The notes below the pieces were generated by a model that had not been told where the DNA came from, made no database searches, and was given only the letters and a program-made list of their open reading frames with translations. This document shows positions 13,199 to 34,898 of a stretch of 42,411 nt of DNA, piece by piece. Within the stretch, counting starts at the first letter, position 1, and every line of letters begins with the position of its first letter. The DNA comes from a virus: positions 1-42,411 of IMG/VR virus record IMGVR_UViG_3300009420_000024, one strand, 5' to 3'. The translations under genes were made by a program, and so were the position numbers.

Positions 13199-13522
13199 AT
13201 GCAAATCTTGTATTGTTTTACTTTCATTCATAGGGATTATATGAAAAACGTATTAGAACGATTTGAAAATATCGTACAACTTGCGTATTCCGCCAACAAG
13301 GATATTCAGTCCAAGGGATACGAAGGAGCCGTAGGTTACGGTCCTAGGTTCAGAAAAATGCTACATAAAAATGGCAAACGGGTTCATTCAATGGGAATAT
13401 ACGACTACTATACTAAAAAGTATGTTTTATTTGAAATGGTTAACATGGTAGGACAAAAGGATAAAATACCTCCTGAGTTCGCACAAATGGAGAAGTTAGT
13501 CAAGGATGCCGTTAGCGCCTAA
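13199..13522 (+). CDS. conserved-looking small hypothetical protein
   Basis: I do not recognise this protein. From the ATG at 13199 it is 107 residues; TAGGAG lies 4 nt upstream. A second possible start is the ATG at 13241 (MKNVLERF, 93 residues), with AGGG 5 nt upstream. The first 14 residues of the longer form are hydrophobic and look unlike the rest, so the shorter form may be the real one. The remainder is soluble, basic and aromatic (GYEGAVGYGPRFRKML, IYDYYTKKYVLFEMVNMVG), with no catalytic signature visible to me. It is the first gene of a plus-strand cassette facing the minus-strand baseplate genes and overlaps the hydrolase gene by 17 nt, so the two are probably translated together. 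Confidence 0.75.
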   Translation: MQILYCFTFIHRDYMKNVLERFENIVQLAYSANKDIQSKGYEGAVGYGPRFRKMLHKNGKRVHSMGIYDYYTKKYVLFEMVNMVGQKDKIPPEFAQMEKLVKDAVSA

Positions 13523-14150
13523 AAAAAATATCGTTTTTGTACACGGTAGTGGTCAAAGCCATCTTAGTTTTAATTTCATAGAGCTATGGTTACCAGAGCA
13601 TAATTCACTGTGCTTTAATTACAGCACACAAGAAGATCCAGATGATATTGTTAAAAGATTCAAAATGTTATTGGATATACAATTTGACGGAGAACCTGTA
13701 CATATTATTGCACACAGTTATGGTTGTTTAATAGCATCAGTCATAGCAGAAAAATACAAAAACGTTGAAACATTAATAACACTATCAAGTCCATGGAACG
13801 GTTCTAGAACCGCTAAGTGGCTAAACATGGTTTTTAGAGAAAGCAAACTCTTTGCAACCACTAAACCGGGAAGTCCGCTTTTAAAGGCAATTGCCAGTCT
13901 AAAGTTAGATTTTCCGATAACTAATATTGTATCCACAGGAACTAAATCGTCAGCAAATGCATTGGCTGGTTTAGGCTCAACTCCCAATGATGGATTACTT
14001 ACATTGGAAACACAACGAGCTGTACCCCAAGGCTTTACAAATTGCGAAACGATAGATATGGAAGTCAGCCATAATGAACTGCTGATGAGTATGGAAGTCG
14101 TGGAACTAATTAAAGAGAAAATTTTCAATGGAACAGCAGATAACCCTTAA
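13506..14150 (+). CDS. alpha/beta hydrolase, lipase/esterase-like
   Basis: A 214-residue protein with the marks of a small alpha/beta hydrolase. An oxyanion strand VFVHGSG lies at residues 10-16. The nucleophile elbow is A-H-S-Y-G with Ser71 (first Gly of GxSxG replaced by Ala). A plausible acid is Asp162 in PNDGLL and a plausible histidine is His189 in VSHNEL. The order Ser-Asp-His and the length fit PGAP1-like or lipase-like members. There is no signal peptide, so it would act in the cytoplasm or after lysis. The substrate cannot be told from sequence. It overlaps both neighbours (17 and 23 nt) in a tight three-gene unit. A metabolic or lysis-related accessory role is possible, but nothing here decides it. 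Confidence 0.85.
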   Translation: MPLAPKKNIVFVHGSGQSHLSFNFIELWLPEHNSLCFNYSTQEDPDDIVKRFKMLLDIQFDGEPVHIIAHSYGCLIASVIAEKYKNVETLITLSSPWNGSRTAKWLNMVFRESKLFATTKPGSPLLKAIASLKLDFPITNIVSTGTKSSANALAGLGSTPNDGLLTLETQRAVPQGFTNCETIDMEVSHNELLMSMEVVELIKEKIFNGTADNP

Positions 14151-24161: not shown

Positions 24162-24787
24162 GCAATAAGAAAGTACCTGTTGAGGTCATCAACGAAGTTG
24201 AAAAATGGCAATCCACTAACTTTACACAAAAAAGTAATAAACCATTAGACCAATTATTAAAAGAATATGAATATTTTGAATTGGCAAACAACGGTGATGT
24301 GTGGAGTAAACAACTTTTAAATAAACACATAGACCCAAATAAGCCAATAACTATATTCGAATTAGGCACAGGCATAGGTTCAGGCACAGTTTGGATGAGT
24401 GAGAATTTATGTCTACATCCTGATAGTGTTATACACTCAGCAGGCATAGACCCACAGCAAGGTATAGATAATTATGCTAAAACTCGATTAGAAAATTATA
24501 ACAATGTTGTTTTCTATAACGAGTATGGAAATGCTGTAATCAAACGATTAGGTATAATGTATGACATGATATACATTGACGGTACACACAGATATATGCC
24601 TACATTAACCGAAGCAAAGATTTCATTAAAACATTTAAAAGAAGATGGTATAATTGTGTTCGATGATTATGATCCCGGCTGGCCCGGTGTAGTACAAGCA
24701 GTAGACGAGTTCGTAAATATGTACAAACTAAAATTAGAGAAAATAAGTAACACACAAGTATTAGTAACGAGATTAACAAATGTGTGA
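24158..24787 (+). CDS. class I SAM-dependent methyltransferase-like protein
   Basis: A 209-residue protein with a Rossmann-like methyltransferase core. Motif I is FELGTGIGSG (residues 67-75 region). An acidic residue follows the second strand in GIDPQQGI, and YIDGTHRYMPTLTEA then IIVFDDYDPGWPGV correspond to the later strands of the Methyltransf_24/cephalosporin hydroxylase-type group, in which D-G-x-H often binds a metal. Target unknown: a small molecule, sugar or protein is as likely as DNA, since no DNA-methylase NPPY/DPPY motif is visible. It overlaps gp46 by 4 nt and the next gene by 8 nt, so it is cotranscribed with replication genes. Confidence 0.85.
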   Translation: MSNKKVPVEVINEVEKWQSTNFTQKSNKPLDQLLKEYEYFELANNGDVWSKQLLNKHIDPNKPITIFELGTGIGSGTVWMSENLCLHPDSVIHSAGIDPQQGIDNYAKTRLENYNNVVFYNEYGNAVIKRLGIMYDMIYIDGTHRYMPTLTEAKISLKHLKEDGIIVFDDYDPGWPGVVQAVDEFVNMYKLKLEKISNTQVLVTRLTNV

Positions 24788-25205
24788 TTGGACCTACAAA
24801 GGTAAATTAGTAGAAAGCATACCAGAACAGTATGAAGGTTTTGTGTATTTAATTACCAACACCACCAATGGCAAAAAGTACATTGGTAAAAAACTAGCAA
24901 AGTTTAAAACTACTAAGCCTCCACTAAAAGGCAGAAAGAACAAAAGGCGTGGTCACAAAGAATCCGACTGGCTAACATATTGGGGTTCATCGGATCACTT
25001 GAATGCTGATGTATTAACCCTAGGCGAAGATGCATTTACTAGAGAAATTTTACACTATTGCGAGAGTAGAGGTGTAATGAGTTATGTAGAAGCAGAGCTA
25101 CAATTCAAACACAAAGTATTACTTTCCGATGACTATTACAACGGAATTATTAACTGTCGCATAGGTGGTTCAGAAATACTTAAGGAAAGTCTCAAGAACA
25201 GATAA
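24780..25205 (+). CDS. GIY-YIG-like endonuclease domain protein
   Basis: A 141-residue protein starting GFVYLITNTTNGKKYIGKK (residues 20-38), a GIY-YIG-type motif (here VYL...KYIG). Other visible segments are a basic stretch (PPLKGRKNKRRG), ESDWLTYWGSSDHLNADV and a Glu in YVEAELQFK that could be the metal-binding residue. The layout matches a group of small T4-like phage proteins annotated as putative endonucleases. It lacks the DNA-binding arm of typical homing endonucleases, so a structure-specific or repair nuclease is as plausible as a mobile one. It is last in the gp55-gp46 operon; the ATG is 8 nt inside the methyltransferase gene. Confidence 0.85.
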   Translation: MCDWTYKGKLVESIPEQYEGFVYLITNTTNGKKYIGKKLAKFKTTKPPLKGRKNKRRGHKESDWLTYWGSSDHLNADVLTLGEDAFTREILHYCESRGVMSYVEAELQFKHKVLLSDDYYNGIINCRIGGSEILKESLKNR

Positions 25206-26790: not shown

Positions 26791-27018
26791 ATGAATAACA
26801 CTAATATAAAACGAGACATTTACACGCACGGTGGTGCTTATGACCGAGGTACTGCTGACAGTTATTATGGCAGAACCAAAAATCCTCATTACTACCCATT
26901 GGGCACTTACAATGGTGACAGAGTAGAACAAGCTGATATGACATTAACACAAATAGATTCATATAACCTAGGCTTTGATGAGAACGAGGCTGATGGTAAC
27001 TTTAAGGATTGGGGATGA
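26791..27018 (+). CDS. small hypothetical protein with YTHGGAYDRG and HYYPLG motifs
   Basis: A 75-residue protein rich in Tyr, Gly and Asp: DIYTHGGAYDRGTADSYYGR, NPHYYPLGTYNG, then an acidic helix-like end. The N-terminal pattern of aromatic residues and glycines recurs in small uncharacterised phage and bacterial proteins, but I know of no function. It starts 1 nt after the preceding stop and its stop TGA overlaps the ATG of the SWIM gene (ATGA), so the three are translationally coupled. Confidence 0.75.
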   Translation: MNNTNIKRDIYTHGGAYDRGTADSYYGRTKNPHYYPLGTYNGDRVEQADMTLTQIDSYNLGFDENEADGNFKDWG

Positions 27019-27347
27019 TAGATATATTACAAGAAACTACTGACTGGGGCAATTATACTGTCGGCAATGGCATATATCATATTAACGGTGCTGGACAATT
27101 GGTTGCGTATCAACCCAATTCAGAAACTCCATTAAAACAGTTCAAGAATCCGCTTAAACAGTTCTCTAAAAGTAGACGTAAGTTTACAAAAATTGGAGCA
27201 TACCCAGAAGTTCATAACGATCCTAAAGTGATTATTGTGAAAGGTTCAAAAGGTAATGAGTATACTGTAGACACAGACAAAGGCACTTGCAGTTGTCCTG
27301 GTTACACTTACAGGGGGAACTGTAAACATGTTAAAGCATATTCTTAA
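27015..27347 (+). CDS. SWIM zinc-finger protein
   Basis: A 110-residue protein from the ATG at 27015 (MIDILQE), which overlaps the previous stop. A reading from a TTG at 27009 adds two residues and is less likely. The C-terminal 40 residues form a SWIM domain: VIIVKGSKGNEYTVDTDKG, then CSCPGYTYRGNCKHVKA, that is C-x-C-x(n)-C-x-H. SWIM domains bind zinc and usually contact DNA or proteins. The N-terminal part (about residues 1-65) is basic with a repeated PLKQF element (TPLKQFKNPLKQF) and no known fold. The domain sits at the extreme C-terminus. A role in DNA binding or host takeover is possible. Confidence 0.85.
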   Translation: MIDILQETTDWGNYTVGNGIYHINGAGQLVAYQPNSETPLKQFKNPLKQFSKSRRKFTKIGAYPEVHNDPKVIIVKGSKGNEYTVDTDKGTCSCPGYTYRGNCKHVKAYS

Positions 27348-27411
27348 GAACTTAGCAGATATTACTATTATAGTTTTATTGGCATTCATTATATATCAAG
27401 GAGCATCATGA
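27328..27411 (+). CDS. 27-residue single-pass membrane micropeptide
   Basis: A short frame starting MLKHILKNLAD and continuing ITIIVLLAFIIYQGAS. It has a basic amphipathic start and then about 12 uninterrupted hydrophobic residues. AGGGGG lies 10 nt upstream of the ATG. The start overlaps the end of the SWIM gene by 20 nt in another frame, and the TGA at 27409-27411 overlaps the ATG of the lipoprotein gene (ATGA). The frame thus fills the gap exactly and runs through the lipoprotein's own AAGGAG site. That architecture suggests a real coupled gene. It is too short for sequence-based function; an inner-membrane peptide is the natural reading. Confidence 0.55.
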   Translation: MLKHILKNLADITIIVLLAFIIYQGAS

Positions 27412-29732
27412 AATTGTTTAATTTATGTATTATAATAGCATCATTGGGCTTAGGCGCATGTGCTAGTGGCGGTGGTTCTTCTGGCGTTGCGCCGGTCGTC
27501 GCTGTCGCGCCGCAAACTTCTACCCCCACCGACCAACGTGTAGCATTTGACAGTTGGGTAGATACTTATACTGGTAGTAATGGTGAAGTAACAGTAGCCT
27601 ACAACATGACTAATTACACTACTACTGGCTTACCTGCTAAAACAGACAAGTTTTATATTGAAGACTATGGCTTTTTTAACACTACCATTACTGGTACTAC
27701 TAATAGAACTGGTGGCGGCATTGAAGGCACAAGTGCTACAAACTTTATTCAGAGTTACAATGTACTTGAAAGCGATATCAATGGTGACGGTCACATGGAC
27801 TATTATATGTTCCATTGGGCAGGTGACCATGTTAATGACGGCTTCCTTCCTGAAAGTAATGTGTTTGCATGGATTAATGATGGTGAAGGACATTTTACAA
27901 TGGACCAGTCTGTGTTTGCAGATGGCACTCCATGTTTTATGGGCACCGGTTGTGCAAACAACGAATCACATACAGGTATACTTGTAGATGATTTTAATGG
28001 TGATGGTATGGACGATATATTTCAGAACCAAACGTTCCTATTAAGCAATAACGGAAAACTACATAACCAAACTGGCTTTGCAGATGATTTATTTGCATCA
28101 TGTTATGATGGGTGTTGGGCACATGATGCCGCCAGTGGAGATGCTGACGGTAATGGCACTACAGATATTTTCTTGCCTATATGGGATAAAAGTTCTGATG
28201 AAAGCGAATGGCAGTATGGTTATCTTCCATGGGCTATGTTATTAAACGATGGTGCTGGTAATTTTACTGTAAACAGAAACTTTCCAGATGTTGGTTCTCC
28301 ATATGATTCCAACTTTGCTACTACGGCTGTTATTGCCGACTTTGATAATGACGGATTCGGTGATGTTGCTGTTGGTTGGCAGAAACCCGGAGAACACACT
28401 ATAGCAAATGATGTTGTTAATAGTGCCGGAGCAGTATTTTACAATGATGGTACTAATGATTGGAGAAACAGAATTGTTGCTCTCCCGGCAAACTACTTTG
28501 GAGCAAATGGACTTGCAAATGATATGCAGGCATTTGATTTTGATGGTGACGGTTTTATTGATATTGTGTTAGCAAGTACAAAACATGATCCTTATTATGA
28601 CGGTAGGTATGTACAGTTTTTTAAAAACGTAGATGGCACAACTTGGTCAGATGTAAGTTCAACTGCTAATCCTAATACAACGTATGCAAATGGATTAAAC
28701 AATGGTTACTGGAATGGCGATGGTAATCTAGCACTTGTAGACTTTGACCACGATGGCGATATGGATATTGTTGACCAAGTAAGAGGTACATACGCATTAA
28801 TTAATAATGGCGATGGCACATTTACTTTGTATGACGACTTCCCACAGTTTAATGATAGAGACAAAATGTTTGCTGTAGAACTTGATGGAAAATTTTGGTA
28901 CGACTTCATAGGTGGTACAAAAACAACAAACGGTGCTGACACAGAAACACTTACATTTTTCCAAGTATTAGATCCACCTAGCATGAGCGAAATGGTAAAT
29001 GATATTGCAACTAAGCCACAAGGATATGCTACAACTGTATTTGAAACTAAACTGTTATTTGATGACATTAGACGTCAGTCACGTGGCACATCAGTATTTG
29101 CAAATGTCAAAGAAGGTAGTAACATACTAGGCTTTAATAAAGACTTTGATAATGGCTTAGGCTTTATGATACAAAAAGCAGAAGGTTCAAACAATGCAAC
29201 GGCATTTACAGTAGACCATCAGAAAGATAGATGGCATACAGGTTTTACATACATTGAAAATAAACTACAAGCACAGAATAAAACTATGTGGTTTGGTACT
29301 GGTAATGCAGATTTAGAATATACTACTATGAGCCAGTTTGTTGAATACTTGGCACCTATTAAAAAGAATATGTTTACAAGTGTAGGATTTGAGATAAGCA
29401 CCACAGACGTAAAAGGCTTTACAGAACAGTTCAGTGATTACAATGTAAGCGTCGATGGCTTCACTACAAACGATGCTAAGGTGTTTGCTGATATAAACTA
29501 CCACATGAAATCTACACTAGGCTACACGCTGTTTACTGCTGGAGTTGACCATTATCAATCAATAAGCAAAAGCACTATTAAGTTTGCAGATATATTGAAA
29601 TACGATTTCAAAGAAGAAATGACAGTTGGTAAAATTAGTTTACAGCACAACTGGAAAGCATTCTATATTAAAGGAAACTTTAATACAGAAAACTTAAATA
29701 GTTTAGAACTTGGATTTAATTTAACTTTTTAA
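27408..29732 (+). CDS. large secreted lipoprotein with FG-GAP/VCBS-like repeats and beta-rich C-terminus
   Basis: A 774-residue protein. Residues 1-18 are a lipoprotein signal peptide with lipobox L15-G-A-C18; Ala at +2 favours the outer membrane. A low-complexity, unusually GC-rich linker follows. Residues about 100-460 carry six Ca-binding loops of the type D-x-[DN]-x-[DN]-G: at about 123 (DINGDG), 195 (DFNGDG), 245 (DADGNG), 311 (DFDNDG), 377 (DFDGDG) and 445 (DFDHDG), spaced 50-70 residues, as in a beta-propeller. Residues about 540-774 are beta-rich with alternating hydrophobics and end in LELGFNLTF, an outer-membrane-barrel-like terminal Phe. No such protein belongs to the T4 core. It may alter the infected cell surface (exclusion of other phages, adhesion), which is inference. 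AAGGAG lies upstream. Confidence 0.88.
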   Translation: MKLFNLCIIIASLGLGACASGGGSSGVAPVVAVAPQTSTPTDQRVAFDSWVDTYTGSNGEVTVAYNMTNYTTTGLPAKTDKFYIEDYGFFNTTITGTTNRTGGGIEGTSATNFIQSYNVLESDINGDGHMDYYMFHWAGDHVNDGFLPESNVFAWINDGEGHFTMDQSVFADGTPCFMGTGCANNESHTGILVDDFNGDGMDDIFQNQTFLLSNNGKLHNQTGFADDLFASCYDGCWAHDAASGDADGNGTTDIFLPIWDKSSDESEWQYGYLPWAMLLNDGAGNFTVNRNFPDVGSPYDSNFATTAVIADFDNDGFGDVAVGWQKPGEHTIANDVVNSAGAVFYNDGTNDWRNRIVALPANYFGANGLANDMQAFDFDGDGFIDIVLASTKHDPYYDGRYVQFFKNVDGTTWSDVSSTANPNTTYANGLNNGYWNGDGNLALVDFDHDGDMDIVDQVRGTYALINNGDGTFTLYDDFPQFNDRDKMFAVELDGKFWYDFIGGTKTTNGADTETLTFFQVLDPPSMSEMVNDIATKPQGYATTVFETKLLFDDIRRQSRGTSVFANVKEGSNILGFNKDFDNGLGFMIQKAEGSNNATAFTVDHQKDRWHTGFTYIENKLQAQNKTMWFGTGNADLEYTTMSQFVEYLAPIKKNMFTSVGFEISTTDVKGFTEQFSDYNVSVDGFTTNDAKVFADINYHMKSTLGYTLFTAGVDHYQSISKSTIKFADILKYDFKEEMTVGKISLQHNWKAFYIKGNFNTENLNSLELGFNLTF

Positions 29733-29833: not shown

Positions 29834-29858
29834 AACTAGCAGACGTGCTAGTTTTTTT
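29834..29858. terminator. bidirectional intrinsic terminator between lipoprotein operon and gp26
   Basis: AACTAGCA (29834-29841) and TGCTAGTT (29846-29853) form a perfect 8-bp stem with a GACG loop. Seven T (29852-29858) end the plus strand. On the other side, seven A just before the stem (from about 29826) give a T-run for minus-strand transcripts. It lies 100 nt after the lipoprotein stop and 11 nt after the stop of the frameshifted gp26 extension. Confidence 0.9.
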
Positions 29859-29863
29859 ATGAC

Positions 29864-30109
29864 TTATTCACCAAGTTCTTCTTGATCCACACTCTTATCA
29901 CCACTCTTAATTTTGTTAAATTTGTTTAATGTTTTAATAAGATACTCACGCTCAATAGGCGACAATTGCCACGCTTCAGAATATGAAACGGCACCTTCAC
30001 TATAGATAGTGAGTTCTGCAACCTGCTTCAGAATAAGTTTTTGGTCTCTATCGAGTCCGCCTAGGAACCTTGAAATCGCTTCAGGTTCGGCTGTGCCTAG
30101 GAACCCGTG
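29864..30109 (-). CDS. frameshift-encoded C-terminal extension of gp26 (gp51 position)
   Basis: In the -1 frame relative to gp26, 81 sense codons run from 30109 to a TAA at 29866-29864. The frame has no ATG, GTG or TTG between its preceding upstream stop (about 30130) and the gp26 stop, so it can hardly be started independently. The sequence looks like real protein: HGFLGTAEPEAISRFLGG, then LDRDQKLILKQVAELTIYSE, GAVSYSEAWQLSPIEREYLI, and a charged end. It is helical, like the extensions of phage tail chaperones. T4 has gene 51 directly after gene 26; whether this segment is homologous to gp51 is not known to me. The terminator follows 11 nt later. Confidence 0.75.
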   Translation of the reverse strand, partial: HGFLGTAEPEAISRFLGGLDRDQKLILKQVAELTIYSEGAVSYSEAWQLSPIEREYLIKTLNKFNKIKSGDKSVDQEELGE

Positions 30110-30960
30110 AAAAAATTTACAGGATCGAAGTTAATAGGTGCAGTATATGAATTTTTACATTCTTCATTCTCACACTCTACTGCTACTTCGTTTTTTACAC
30201 CCTTTGCATTTACAGTATTGATAAATTCTTCAATTTCTTTACCAGTACCGTTATCTGTGTTTTCTAAAAACTCTCTGATAATACCTTTATCGCTAATTTG
30301 AATTTGCTTGCCTTCTGCATCCGTGTAATAGATATTTTTGATGCTATCAATTAAAAGCTCAAAGTTTAAATCTGCAAGTTTAACAAAACTTTCGTTAAAT
30401 GCACTTAATCTATCCATGTCGTTTGACATTTCTGAAATACTTTGCATACTTCTTGTACTTTGAAAACTGGCTACACCGGCTTTAATAGTGTTAGCATAAC
30501 TAAAAGGTAGTGCTGTAATTCTTAAACCATTTGAAATATCGATGTCGTATTCATTCTCTATTTGTTCCATGGATGAAAGACTTTCTTCAACACTTATGTT
30601 TACATTAGTAATTGTTTTACATTCTGGACACTCAGCATTAACTTCAACTAAGTCTCCTCCACTTGCTCCTCTAATAGCAATTAGTAGTGCATCAACATCA
30701 GCACTAAACAATTTTTTAGGTTGTTTAACTTCTGGTACACAACTTTTAATTAAAGTAGCAACGGCTTCACCGTTAAGTAAAGCATCTGGATTCTTAAGTA
30801 CTAACTCATCCTTTGTAGTCATTGGATAAATTGCAAATTCACCGCTCTCAGGTATAGTTATTACATCAGCATCATAGAACTTTCCACTAGATGGAATATT
30901 TGTCCATAGTTTAGGTGCTCTAAAATAAGCACTTAATGGATTTTGTATTTGCTCTGTCAT
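30097..30960 (-). CDS. 26: baseplate hub assembly protein gp26-like, zero-frame product
   Basis: A 287-residue protein of the T4 gp26 baseplate family: LWTNIPSSGKFYDADVITIP (residues 18-37), YPMTTKDELVLKNPDALLNG (45-64), LIAIRGASGGDLVEVNAECP with the pair C-P-E-C, and a second Cys pair in CENEECK near residues 268-274, which together could bind zinc. Only the N-terminal ~200 residues match the family closely. The ATG at 30960 has CAGGAG upstream. The gene ends NFFTGS-stop; a slippery TTTTTTC six nucleotides before the stop codon's tract allows a 365-residue fusion. It is divergent from the tape measure gene, the usual neighbour of frameshifted tail chaperones. Confidence 0.9.
   Translation of the reverse strand: MTEQIQNPLSAYFRAPKLWTNIPSSGKFYDADVITIPESGEFAIYPMTTKDELVLKNPDALLNGEAVATLIKSCVPEVKQPKKLFSADVDALLIAIRGASGGDLVEVNAECPECKTITNVNISVEESLSSMEQIENEYDIDISNGLRITALPFSYANTIKAGVASFQSTRSMQSISEMSNDMDRLSAFNESFVKLADLNFELLIDSIKNIYYTDAEGKQIQISDKGIIREFLENTDNGTGKEIEEFINTVNAKGVKNEVAVECENEECKNSYTAPINFDPVNFFTGS
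30109..30118 (-). promoter_or_regulatory. programmed -1 frameshift site AAATTTTTTC
   Basis: On the minus strand the zero-frame codons are GTA AAT TTT TTC ACG GGT TCC TAG. Both A-AAT-TTT and T-TTT-TTC fit the X-XXY-YYZ rule, with TTTTTTC at 30115-30109 the better one. Three nucleotides downstream GGTTC and GGC (with a CTA bulge) can pair with GCCGAACC around an ACA loop, a possible stimulatory hairpin. An 11-nt sequence GGTTCCTAGGC is repeated at 30105-30095 and 30069-30059, and its CCTAGG cores could pair with each other. Confidence 0.7.
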
Positions 30961-31085: not shown

Positions 31086-34000
31086 ATGGCACAAATTACT
31101 TTAAACCTAGCAGACGGCAGTACTATTACAGTACCCGAATGGGCATTAGAAACTACCCAACAAGATGTACTTAAAGAGATTGGTAAACTTGTTAAAACTA
31201 CAGGTGGTACTACAGCGGCACAAGAAAAAGCCACTACAGATGCAAAAAAACTTTTAACACTAGCACAGAAAGAAGCCAAAGAAACTAAATCTGCTAATAA
31301 AGAGCAAGAAAAACGAGATGACAAGCAGTATAAGTTAGACCAAGAACATAAAGCATCATTGGATAGCCTGTCTGATGAGATGAAAAAGTTTAAAGCAGAC
31401 AAGAACAAATCAAACTTTGATAAAATTATAGATGACTTTGAAGAAACTGGCGAACAAGTTGGACGTTCATTATTATATATGGGCGAAAAGGCAGTTGCTG
31501 GTGGTTTAGCCATTGCAACTTCCTTAATAGGCGGATTAACGTATGTTAGTCATGCATTATTAGGGGCAGGCGATACTTTAAACCAACTAAGTGATGTTGG
31601 TGTTGGAATGAATGGCACCTTTGCTGGAGTGGCCCAAAATGCTACAGCCGGTATTGCCGGATTGGCAGGACTTACAGGAAGTTTTGGTGCGGCGGCAGAC
31701 TTAATAAAAAATAGTTCAAGTGTAGTTGCTACACAAGGCTTTGGCAGATTTACAGACTCAATGAAGTTTGCATCAGACGTGTCAGAAGAATTAGGCATGA
31801 GCTTCGAAGACAGTATGGACAAGTTTGGAGATGCATTGAGCAGAAGACAGAATTCAATGAACTTACAAAACGTTGGACAAGGTGCATTAAACAGAACTAT
31901 ACAAACCACAATTAAAAGTCAACGTACATACAGTATGGCACTTGGTATTAGTTCAGAACATTTAGAGGCGTTTGTTGACTCTCTAACTAGAAATAACGGA
32001 CTACTTAATTCAACATTATTAGGTATGAACGATAGCATTAGAAATGATGTGATGGGTGGTATAGAAGTATTTGCAAGTGGTATGGCTGGTTTAGGTGGAC
32101 AAGCAGGTGAAGGAATTGCACAGGCATTTACTGAAGCGGCATCAGCCGGTGCTATAGGACTTAGTGATGAAGCAGTAGGCTATATCACAGCACTACCAAG
32201 TTTAGCAGGACCAATGAACGAATACATTAGTGCGGTACAAAACGGAACACTTAGTCAGTCACAAGCACAAGACATGGTTGGAGATTTAACAATGAGCTTG
32301 GGCAATTTAAGTCAAGGCGAAAAAGCAAGGGTTAAATCATTAGCGGCAATTGGTGACCAAAACGCACAGGCATTAGCAAATGCCATAACGCAATTTGAAC
32401 AAAGTGAAGATAAGATGAAAGAACTTAACAAGCAGTTAGGTACAGCATTTGATATGGACACAGTTCAAAAAGGCACAAACGAATTTAATAAAGTATTGAA
32501 TCAAGCCAAAGGCGGATTCAGTAATATGTTCTACAGTTTATTCAGTAACCCAGAAATTACTAAAGCATTATCAGATGGTATGAATGATATTTTAGAAATA
32601 TTCGGTTTTACTACAGACTCAGTAGGCAGTAAAGCAATGGACATGAGCAAAACAATTGAAAAATTTGTTCCAATAGTTAAAAGTGTTGTCCAAGGCATGG
32701 TAAATGTATTTAAAGATGTTGCAGAATTTTTTGCAAAATACATAAATGCAGACGGTATGGATTTTGGCGGACTAATAAGTGCTATGCTTGGCAAAGCACT
32801 CAAAGGCATTGTTAAGTCATTGCTGTATGCAATACCAACATTTATATTGGCTATATTTGCCGTTGGATATGCAAAATCAATATTTGCAAGTGTCCTTTTA
32901 CCAAAAATGACTTCATTTATGGATGGGTTATTTGCAGGAGCAGGCAAAACGGCAGGCTCTTTGGCAGAAAGAACCAAAGGCTGGTTAGGTAAAATGTTTA
33001 AAGGCGATCCTTCCCAACTGACCAAAGGCGGCATGCGTGATATGAGATTTACAGCCAATAAGGACTTTGCCAGTTCTAAAATGGGAAGAATACAAGAAGC
33101 GGCAGGTAAGTTAAAAAACAAAGTGATGCCCGTAGATGGAAAAATAGCCGGAGCGGCTGGCAGATTGAAGGCAGGCATTGCTGGAAAATTTGGCGGAGGC
33201 GCCGACGGCGCGGCAGGCGTTCTAAAAGATGTAGAAAACAAGGGTTCTAAAGTAACAAAAGATATTGGTAAAAAATTAACCGGTGGCGGTAAAAGTGGTG
33301 GCTTCTTAAAAACTATAGCAGACGGTGTTGCCAAATTTGGAAACAACAAAGTTATTAAAGGAGCGGCAAGTTTAGCCTTACTAGGTGGTGCAATAGCATT
33401 AACGGCAATAGGTTTAAAACAATTTAACGAAGTAGACTTTACTTCTATTATAAAAGGCACAATAGCATTAACTGGATTAGTACTATTAACTAAATTACTA
33501 GGCAAAGGCTCAACAGCAATGATGAAAGGTGCGGCGGCAATTGCCCTATTAGGACTTTCAGTTGTTCCACTAGCATTTGGACTTAGATTAATGAACGATG
33601 TTGGCGCAGGTACACTATTTGTATTAGCCGGCGGCTTAACTGTATTGGGTATAGCAGGTGCGGCAATAGGCTCATTCCTACCATTAATGTTAATGGGTGC
33701 AGTTGGTATCGCGGCATTAGGTGCCGCAATTATACCATTTGCAATAGCAATGAAAATAATGGATGGCGTTGGTATGGCCACAATAGGTACTATGGCGTCA
33801 GGTATGACTGCATTAGGTTTAGCGGCGATAGGCTTTGGATTAGCGATGCCATTTATATTAATGGGCTCTGTGGCAATGGCGGCATTAGGTATAGCACTTA
33901 TTCCTTTAGGTCTAGGACTTAAAATAGTAAGCTCGGCTTTACCAAGTTTTGTAGAAGCAATGGACACTATGTCATCAATTGATGGCAAAGGCATGTTAAG

Positions 34001-34898
34001 TACAGCAGGCGGAATGGTAGCACTAGCGGGTGCAATGGCATTAATGGCACCTCTATTACCACTAATATTAATTGGTGCAATGGCGGCACCAGCTCTCAAG
34101 TATATGGGCGAATCATTACAAGCATTTAATAATGTAAACTTTGCCAACCTTGCTATGGCAGGCATTGGCATGAAAGCAATAGCAGAAGGCATGGCGGCTA
34201 TGAGCGGCGGTTCATTAAAGTCAAGTATGATGGACGGTATAGGCAGTTTCTTTGGTGCAGACAGTCCTATAGACAAACTAAAAACCTTTGTAGAAGGATT
34301 TGAAAGTCTTAATCTTGATGCAATTCACTTAACAGCAGATGCATTATCAACATTAAGTGATACACTATTTGATTTATCTTATTCAATGAGTGGAGCGGCA
34401 CCAGAGTTTGAAAAATTAGCAAAAGCAATGGACACTATATCAGCAGGCTCATTAGTTAAGATGGCGGCTATTAAGGCAATGGGTGCCTTAGGACTAGGTG
34501 GCATAAGCGATGGAGCAGTTGCACAAGCGTCAGCAAAACCATCAACTCCGGCAATAGTAGGTACTACTGTAGGTGGTTCGATGGGACAAGCACCAATGGA
34601 TGGTGGCGCCGGCCCAGGCATTTTTGCGCCAATGGGCGGAACAACTAATACTCCAGTAACAGCGGCACAAAACTTTATGTCGGCATCGTATGGTCAAGAT
34701 GATGACGACTTTGGCGATGCTATTACACCAACTGCAAAAGAGATGAAAAAAGCCAGCACAGGACCTGTAGATCCAGAAGATGAAAAGGATTCTATGACCA
34801 TAATGGCAGAACTTATGCATAGACAGTTAGAAGTTCAGCAACAACAACTAGCAATATCCAAAAAACAAAACCGTAACATAGAAGGCTTAGAAATCTAG
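31086..34898 (+). CDS. tail tape measure-like protein
   Basis: A 1,270-residue protein. A GTG at 31071 lies in frame, but it sits on the late octamer, so the ATG at 31086 (MAQITLNL) is chosen. The N-terminal ~110 residues are charged coiled coil (KKLLTLAQKEAKETKSANKE). Hydrophobic Gly/Ala-rich segments follow at about 130-165 and 560-605, and residues about 745-1045 contain several Ala/Gly/Leu/Met-rich repeats of roughly 55-60 residues with the pattern MAALG-IPLGLGLK. Such membrane-like repeats and the great length are typical of tape measures, which set tail length and enter the cell envelope. T4 gp29 is 590 residues. The position beside gp26 supports the call. The C-terminus is charged helix ending QNRNIEGLEI. 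Confidence 0.85.
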   Translation: MAQITLNLADGSTITVPEWALETTQQDVLKEIGKLVKTTGGTTAAQEKATTDAKKLLTLAQKEAKETKSANKEQEKRDDKQYKLDQEHKASLDSLSDEMKKFKADKNKSNFDKIIDDFEETGEQVGRSLLYMGEKAVAGGLAIATSLIGGLTYVSHALLGAGDTLNQLSDVGVGMNGTFAGVAQNATAGIAGLAGLTGSFGAAADLIKNSSSVVATQGFGRFTDSMKFASDVSEELGMSFEDSMDKFGDALSRRQNSMNLQNVGQGALNRTIQTTIKSQRTYSMALGISSEHLEAFVDSLTRNNGLLNSTLLGMNDSIRNDVMGGIEVFASGMAGLGGQAGEGIAQAFTEAASAGAIGLSDEAVGYITALPSLAGPMNEYISAVQNGTLSQSQAQDMVGDLTMSLGNLSQGEKARVKSLAAIGDQNAQALANAITQFEQSEDKMKELNKQLGTAFDMDTVQKGTNEFNKVLNQAKGGFSNMFYSLFSNPEITKALSDGMNDILEIFGFTTDSVGSKAMDMSKTIEKFVPIVKSVVQGMVNVFKDVAEFFAKYINADGMDFGGLISAMLGKALKGIVKSLLYAIPTFILAIFAVGYAKSIFASVLLPKMTSFMDGLFAGAGKTAGSLAERTKGWLGKMFKGDPSQLTKGGMRDMRFTANKDFASSKMGRIQEAAGKLKNKVMPVDGKIAGAAGRLKAGIAGKFGGGADGAAGVLKDVENKGSKVTKDIGKKLTGGGKSGGFLKTIADGVAKFGNNKVIKGAASLALLGGAIALTAIGLKQFNEVDFTSIIKGTIALTGLVLLTKLLGKGSTAMMKGAAAIALLGLSVVPLAFGLRLMNDVGAGTLFVLAGGLTVLGIAGAAIGSFLPLMLMGAVGIAALGAAIIPFAIAMKIMDGVGMATIGTMASGMTALGLAAIGFGLAMPFILMGSVAMAALGIALIPLGLGLKIVSSALPSFVEAMDTMSSIDGKGMLSTAGGMVALAGAMALMAPLLPLILIGAMAAPALKYMGESLQAFNNVNFANLAMAGIGMKAIAEGMAAMSGGSLKSSMMDGIGSFFGADSPIDKLKTFVEGFESLNLDAIHLTADALSTLSDTLFDLSYSMSGAAPEFEKLAKAMDTISAGSLVKMAAIKAMGALGLGGISDGAVAQASAKPSTPAIVGTTVGGSMGQAPMDGGAGPGIFAPMGGTTNTPVTAAQNFMSASYGQDDDDFGDAITPTAKEMKKASTGPVDPEDEKDSMTIMAELMHRQLEVQQQQLAISKKQNRNIEGLEI

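Follow-up and report, generated by a model that had tools for sequence, protein, structure and literature searches.

G-T frameshifting is conserved in long-tailed phages, with T4 as the exception (Atkins et al. 2016, PMC5009743). In T4-like phages, the tail assembly chaperone genes have been identified as gp26 and gp51 (Vladimirov, Gautam and Davidson 2022, Virology 566:9-15); as later papers cite that study, some T4-like phages carry a short gene and a fused long gene (PRFect, PMC10274946) and T4-like TAC-N genes contain poly-T slippery sequences (the Adele paper, PMC12846349). By these accounts, frameshifted gp26/gp51-type chaperone genes are already known in T4-like phages, and the belief voiced in an earlier sequence-only reading of the present locus, that no frameshift between gp26 and gp51 had been described, is incorrect. 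Here we analyze a gp26-like gene in a 42,411-nt stretch of viral DNA (the window), from a giant marine T4-like phage, that very likely, judging from its sequence and those of its relatives, uses programmed -1 frameshifting at its end to produce a short and a long form.

The gp26-like gene and the -1 frame behind it

The gp26-like gene (30097..30960, minus strand) encodes a 287-aa short form, the 'G'-like or TAC-N component, which belongs to the T4 gp26 family (T4_baseplate) by profile matches to the whole protein (PF12322, 1.9e-18; PHROG 150, baseplate hub, 2.5e-23). Its predicted fold (pLDDT 89) finds its best BFVD match, at E 4e-26, to predicted T4-like baseplate hub proteins; against solved structures in PDB the model gave no significant match, with no solved chaperone structure among the matches, and no sequence or fold relation was found that would show kinship with the G proteins of lambda or other phages. 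In the 0 frame the gene ends GTA AAT TTT TTC ACG GGT TCC TAG, the stop lying at 30097..30099 (minus strand). The -1 frame (extension, 29864..30115, minus strand) remains open for 81 codons past the Phe-Phe pair, to a TAA at 29866-29864, and reads KFFHGFLG...EELGE; joined to gp26 residues 1-284, it would complete a fusion of 365 aa. The sequence-only reading had placed gp26, the slippery site and the extension at exactly these coordinates, and its 81-codon open frame and 365-residue fusion were likewise confirmed. It was also right that the extension lacks a start codon of its own: there is no ATG, the first ~50 codons are free of ATG, GTG and TTG, and the only candidates, a TTG 33 codons and a GTG 8 codons ahead of the stop, come too late to be usable. 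The short gene is therefore followed by an overlapping -1 frame without its own start, as in a TAC-N/TAC-NC pair. A terminator-like hairpin with a T run (29834..29853, minus strand) directly follows the extension, beginning at 29853, where the sequence-only reading had placed the terminator.

By codon substitution the extension evolves as a protein. In the window clade, dN/dS in the -1 frame past the gp26 stop is 0.14 over codons 7-40 and 0.11 over codons 7-70; the other two frames give 1.0-1.8 and contain stops. Taken alone, the extension is predicted to form a small, helical four-helix domain (pLDDT 89), which agrees with the first impression of a helical protein. The predicted fold had no significant match in the viral library, and direct family and profile searches gave no convincing match, PHROG 634 (small gp51) not being matched directly; profile-profile comparison with cyanophage gp51 tails returned an E value of 0.0026 but a probability of 12%, over 32 columns. 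Position, frame and slip site are identical to those of the annotated cyanophage gp51. We therefore regard the extension as a positional counterpart of small gp51, a putative homology that is weak by profile and supported by this identity of position, frame and slip site.

Next to gp26 lies a large divergent ORF of 1269 aa (31089..34898, plus strand), whose size, composition and position beside gp26 make it a probable tape measure gene. A profile search of this ORF matched no tape measure or other family; the adjacent, divergent tape measure gene of the sequence-only reading is thus upheld as a large neighbor in that orientation, its identity as a tape measure gene being putative. Nor did the neighbors of gp26 in giant phages match a tape measure profile; their annotation in related giant phages is that of a structural protein or, in RaK2, of a protein similar to tape measure protein. 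Several other ORFs, all on the plus strand, deserve mention. Convergent with the gp26 unit is a 774-aa lipoprotein-like ORF (27408-29732) with a signal peptide containing LGAC and with FG-GAP repeats (PF13517, 4.5e-14), an unusual cargo in a phage structural region; a small ORF at 27009-27347 carries a SWIM zinc finger (PF04434, 1.5e-5). Right after a methyltransferase-like ORF (PF13578), positions 24780-25205 encode a SegE-type GIY-YIG endonuclease (PF19835, 2.6e-34), probably a homing endonuclease, and an alpha/beta hydrolase-like ORF (13506-14150; PF12697, 9.3e-6) sits within the baseplate gene region.

Conservation of the slippery site and of the downstream structure

The slippery site, A AAT TTT TTC (30109..30118, minus strand; AAATTTTTTC), holds two heptamers, A AAT TTT and T TTT TTC, and a slip on either would give the identical product, VNFFHGFLG. 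A search of viral contigs recovered 54 relatives of the extension, each bearing AAATTTTTTC and having gp26 in the other frame; the -1 frame in these loci is open merely 2-8 codons upstream, and the gp26 stop falls 6 codons after. Among isolates, tblastn of the extension found matches directly behind gp26, in the -1 frame, in Atu_ph07, SCTP-2 and two Stenotrophomonas phages. In each of 12 phages (Atu_ph07, Phosso, SCTP-2, PA5oct, RAS14, Vibrio 2.275.O, 121Q, RaK2, CBB, XaC1, BF and cyanophage Bellamy), gp26 ends in T TTT TTY and the -1 frame stays open 57-74 codons beyond its stop, and seven further T4-like phages (P-HM1, phiM7, AS-zj, YB07, KVP40, Melnitz-2 and SRB7757) share this layout. Both the conserved heptamer and the -1 frame for which the sequence-only reading had suggested looking are thus present in 54/54 extension relatives and in 19 isolate phages. 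Three phages depart from this layout: Vibrio D531, which has TAATG and no heptamer, T4, and an Enterobacter relative of T4. For Bellamy, P-HM1, phiM7 and KVP40, annotation names the -1 frame gp51 or baseplate hub assembly catalyst; other public records give the extension as a small hypothetical protein from an internal codon (L001:3930-4052, L003:3939-4133, L005:3085-3252, L009:3867-4043), starts that are probably wrong.

The way the site is spelled departs from chance by a wide margin. Among 155 non-redundant gp26 genes, 143 have a terminal Phe-Phe at the site, written T|TTT|TTY in 143/143; at other Phe-Phe pairs of the same genes this spelling occurs once in 87. The preceding codon specifies any of nine amino acids (N, S, D, A, H, G, R, T, Y) and always ends in T. 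Across 163 gp26 loci in viral contigs, 147 have T TTT TTY and 16 A AAT TTT. The 80 cyanophage-type loci all have T TTT TTC plus gp51 in the -1 frame; the 83 recovered with giant-phage queries divide into 67 with T TTT TTY and 16 with A AAT TTT and a five-T run. In these 16, the short protein ends Phe-Ser or Phe-Ser-Thr-Ala-Ser, yet the fused product is still Asn-Phe-Phe, which argues that selection acts on slippage and not on the Phe-Phe residues. This second heptamer type stands at the end of gp26 in loci L040, L044, L063-L065, L073, L078, L080-L085, L087, L093 and L094. An X XXY YYZ heptamer, as found in -1 frameshifted TAC-N/TAC-NC pairs, is therefore conserved across T4-like phages.

Just past the site, a putative stimulatory RNA structure (30052..30107, minus strand) consists of an outer helix (30107-30096 with 30065-30052), whose 5' arm includes the TAG, and an inner hairpin (30087-30080 with 30074-30066). 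In the window clade, 11 distinct relatives reveal conserved pairs and covariation: the outer stem is nearly invariant, and in four pairs of the inner hairpin both partners have changed, more than in shuffled or slid controls. The window's own stem (-19.1 kcal/mol, z -1.14) is not significant by itself. A separate hairpin, GGTC..GACC, occurs in the A AAT TTT clade, the cyanophage examples inspected have a six-pair GC-rich hairpin ~5 nt past the heptamer, and RNAalifold found no consensus structure in the neighboring NFFTAS clade, so that the stems differ between clades. The 60 nt downstream have a mean z of -1.96 in giant phages and -1.93 in cyanophages, compared with -0.31 and -0.41, in that order, for gp26 regions taken as controls (the p values, 1.6e-17 and 1.7e-14, are optimistic because related sequences are not independent). 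A downstream stimulatory structure of the kind associated with TAC-N/TAC-NC pairs is thus predicted by computation, the NFFTAS clade having no consensus. Together, the conserved heptamer, the conserved startless -1 frame and the downstream stem support programmed -1 frameshifting, as the sequence-only reading had proposed.

A proposed mechanism and its rivals

We posit that most ribosomes on the gp26 gene would terminate at the TAG (30099-30097) and release the 287-aa protein, and that a fraction, aided by the RNA stem beginning a few bases downstream, would shift by -1 at A AAT TTT TTC and read 81 more codons to make the 365-aa gp26-gp51 fusion. The two forms could then pair as tail assembly chaperones in the manner of lambda gpG/gpGT: the short form would coat the tape measure protein, and the helical C-terminal domain of the fusion would recruit tail tube subunits. 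We consider this overall explanation, slippage yielding both products and the products serving as a chaperone pair, highly probable. Within it, comparative sequence shows that frame, heptamer and stem are conserved and that the extension is constrained as protein; that ribosomes slip, how often they do so and that the products are chaperones is what we infer.

That the frame change might be an artifact, a T lost from the six-T run of a gene that is truly continuous, was the main alternative offered with the sequence-only reading, and homopolymer errors are common in principle. Yet the same decamer and frames recur in 54/54 extension relatives from many separate metagenomes, which excludes a lost T, the isolate genomes of 19 phages have the same layout, and the -1 relation is preserved in a five-T variant whose heptamer differs; we assign this possibility a negligible probability. 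The five-T variant also disfavors slippage by RNA polymerase, in which one added base on the T run would bring about the -1 frame: the run is just five or six T, the five-T clade retains A AAT TTT in frame, and an in-frame heptamer with a downstream RNA structure bears the signs of ribosomal slippage, so that a transcriptional origin is very improbable. We find it equally hard to credit that the extension is a small gene in its own right, gp51, whose translation would begin at the gp26 stop through reinitiation or coupling. An ATG overlaps that stop in KVP40, 121Q, YB07, Phosso and Atu_ph07, some of which are annotated so, and Vibrio phage D531 (L021:2690-2714) has a gp26 without heptamer and an ATG overlapping the stop (TAATG); in the D531 lineage coupled reinitiation may replace frameshifting. 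A separate start codon is, however, absent from the window and several relatives: no ATG, GTG or TTG occurs for ~50 codons in the window, no usable start exists in the -1 frame of the window clade, PA5oct or SRB7757, and AS-zj has a late ATG only. Moreover, conservation extends to the residues that separate the slip site from the first possible start, and the heptamer is retained even where an ATG exists. In relatives with an ATG overlapping or near the gp26 stop, reinitiation could also yield a free small gp51.

A last rival accepts ribosomal frameshifting and questions its purpose: gp26 and the fusion could be baseplate hub assembly factors instead of tape measure chaperones, as the historical T4 annotation, a hub subunit for gp26 and a catalyst of hub assembly for gp51, would have it. 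Nevertheless, a short and a long form related by a -1 shift make up the architecture of tail assembly chaperones, and gp26/gp51 are published as chaperones in T4-like phages, as cited in PMC10274946 and PMC12846349; we therefore think a hub role unlikely, if less so than the other rivals. The gpG/gpGT-like chaperone role, suggested by analogy of this architecture, is plausible and fits the published gp26/gp51 identification so far as those citations convey it. The G/GT-type pair proposed in the sequence-only reading thus accords with architecture and literature, its tape measure binding remaining putative.

Relation to T4 and other known systems

T4 gp51 matches PF12322 over aa 1-201 (3.9e-52) and PHROG 634 over 147-246, and is thus a gp26-like domain followed by a small gp51 tail, from which it follows that in T4 the short form has a gene to itself, gene 26, and so does the long form, gene 51. 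The sequence-only reading had described genes 26 and 51 as separate neighbors; separate they are, but they are divergently oriented, and the gp26-like domain within gp51 had been overlooked. Most T4-like phages checked appear from their sequences to make both forms from one gene. On balance, and with modest confidence, we favor the view that a single gp26-gp51 gene with a -1 frameshift at T TTT TTY (or A AAT TTT) and a clade-specific stem is the ancestral, near-universal T4-like route to the tail chaperone pair, giant phages included, and that T4, with genes 26 and 51 apart, is a derived exception produced by duplication and fusion. These comparisons extend the use of frameshifted chaperones to giant T4-like phages and to most cyanophages, for which public records enter the downstream part either as a hypothetical protein or as a gp51 whose start is doubtful; they account for T4 gp51 as gp26 in its long form; and, with two natural heptamers and clade-specific stems, they offer a simple test system.

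With lambda gpG/gpGT (PMC5009743) the locus shares a short protein, a rare -1 fusion near the 3' end, a slippery heptamer and a nearby (putative) tape measure gene, which here is divergent and not directly downstream. The Vandenendeviridae TAC locus of Pseudomonas phage Adele (PMC12846349) resembles it in that a T-rich motif within a myovirus chaperone gene is the site of a conserved -1 frameshift, although Adele belongs to another phage family and its motif is GTTTTT. The T4-like chaperones gp26/gp51, as their description is cited, share with it the same protein families, short and long forms and poly-T slippery sites; where T4 itself has two genes, the giant-phage lineage has one frameshifted gene. 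Relative to the chaperones of Vladimirov et al. 2022, so far as citing papers describe them, the present loci differ in a second heptamer type and in clade-specific stems, and the spread into giant phages, the A AAT TTT variant, the covarying downstream stems and the quantified universality of the arrangement may be new.
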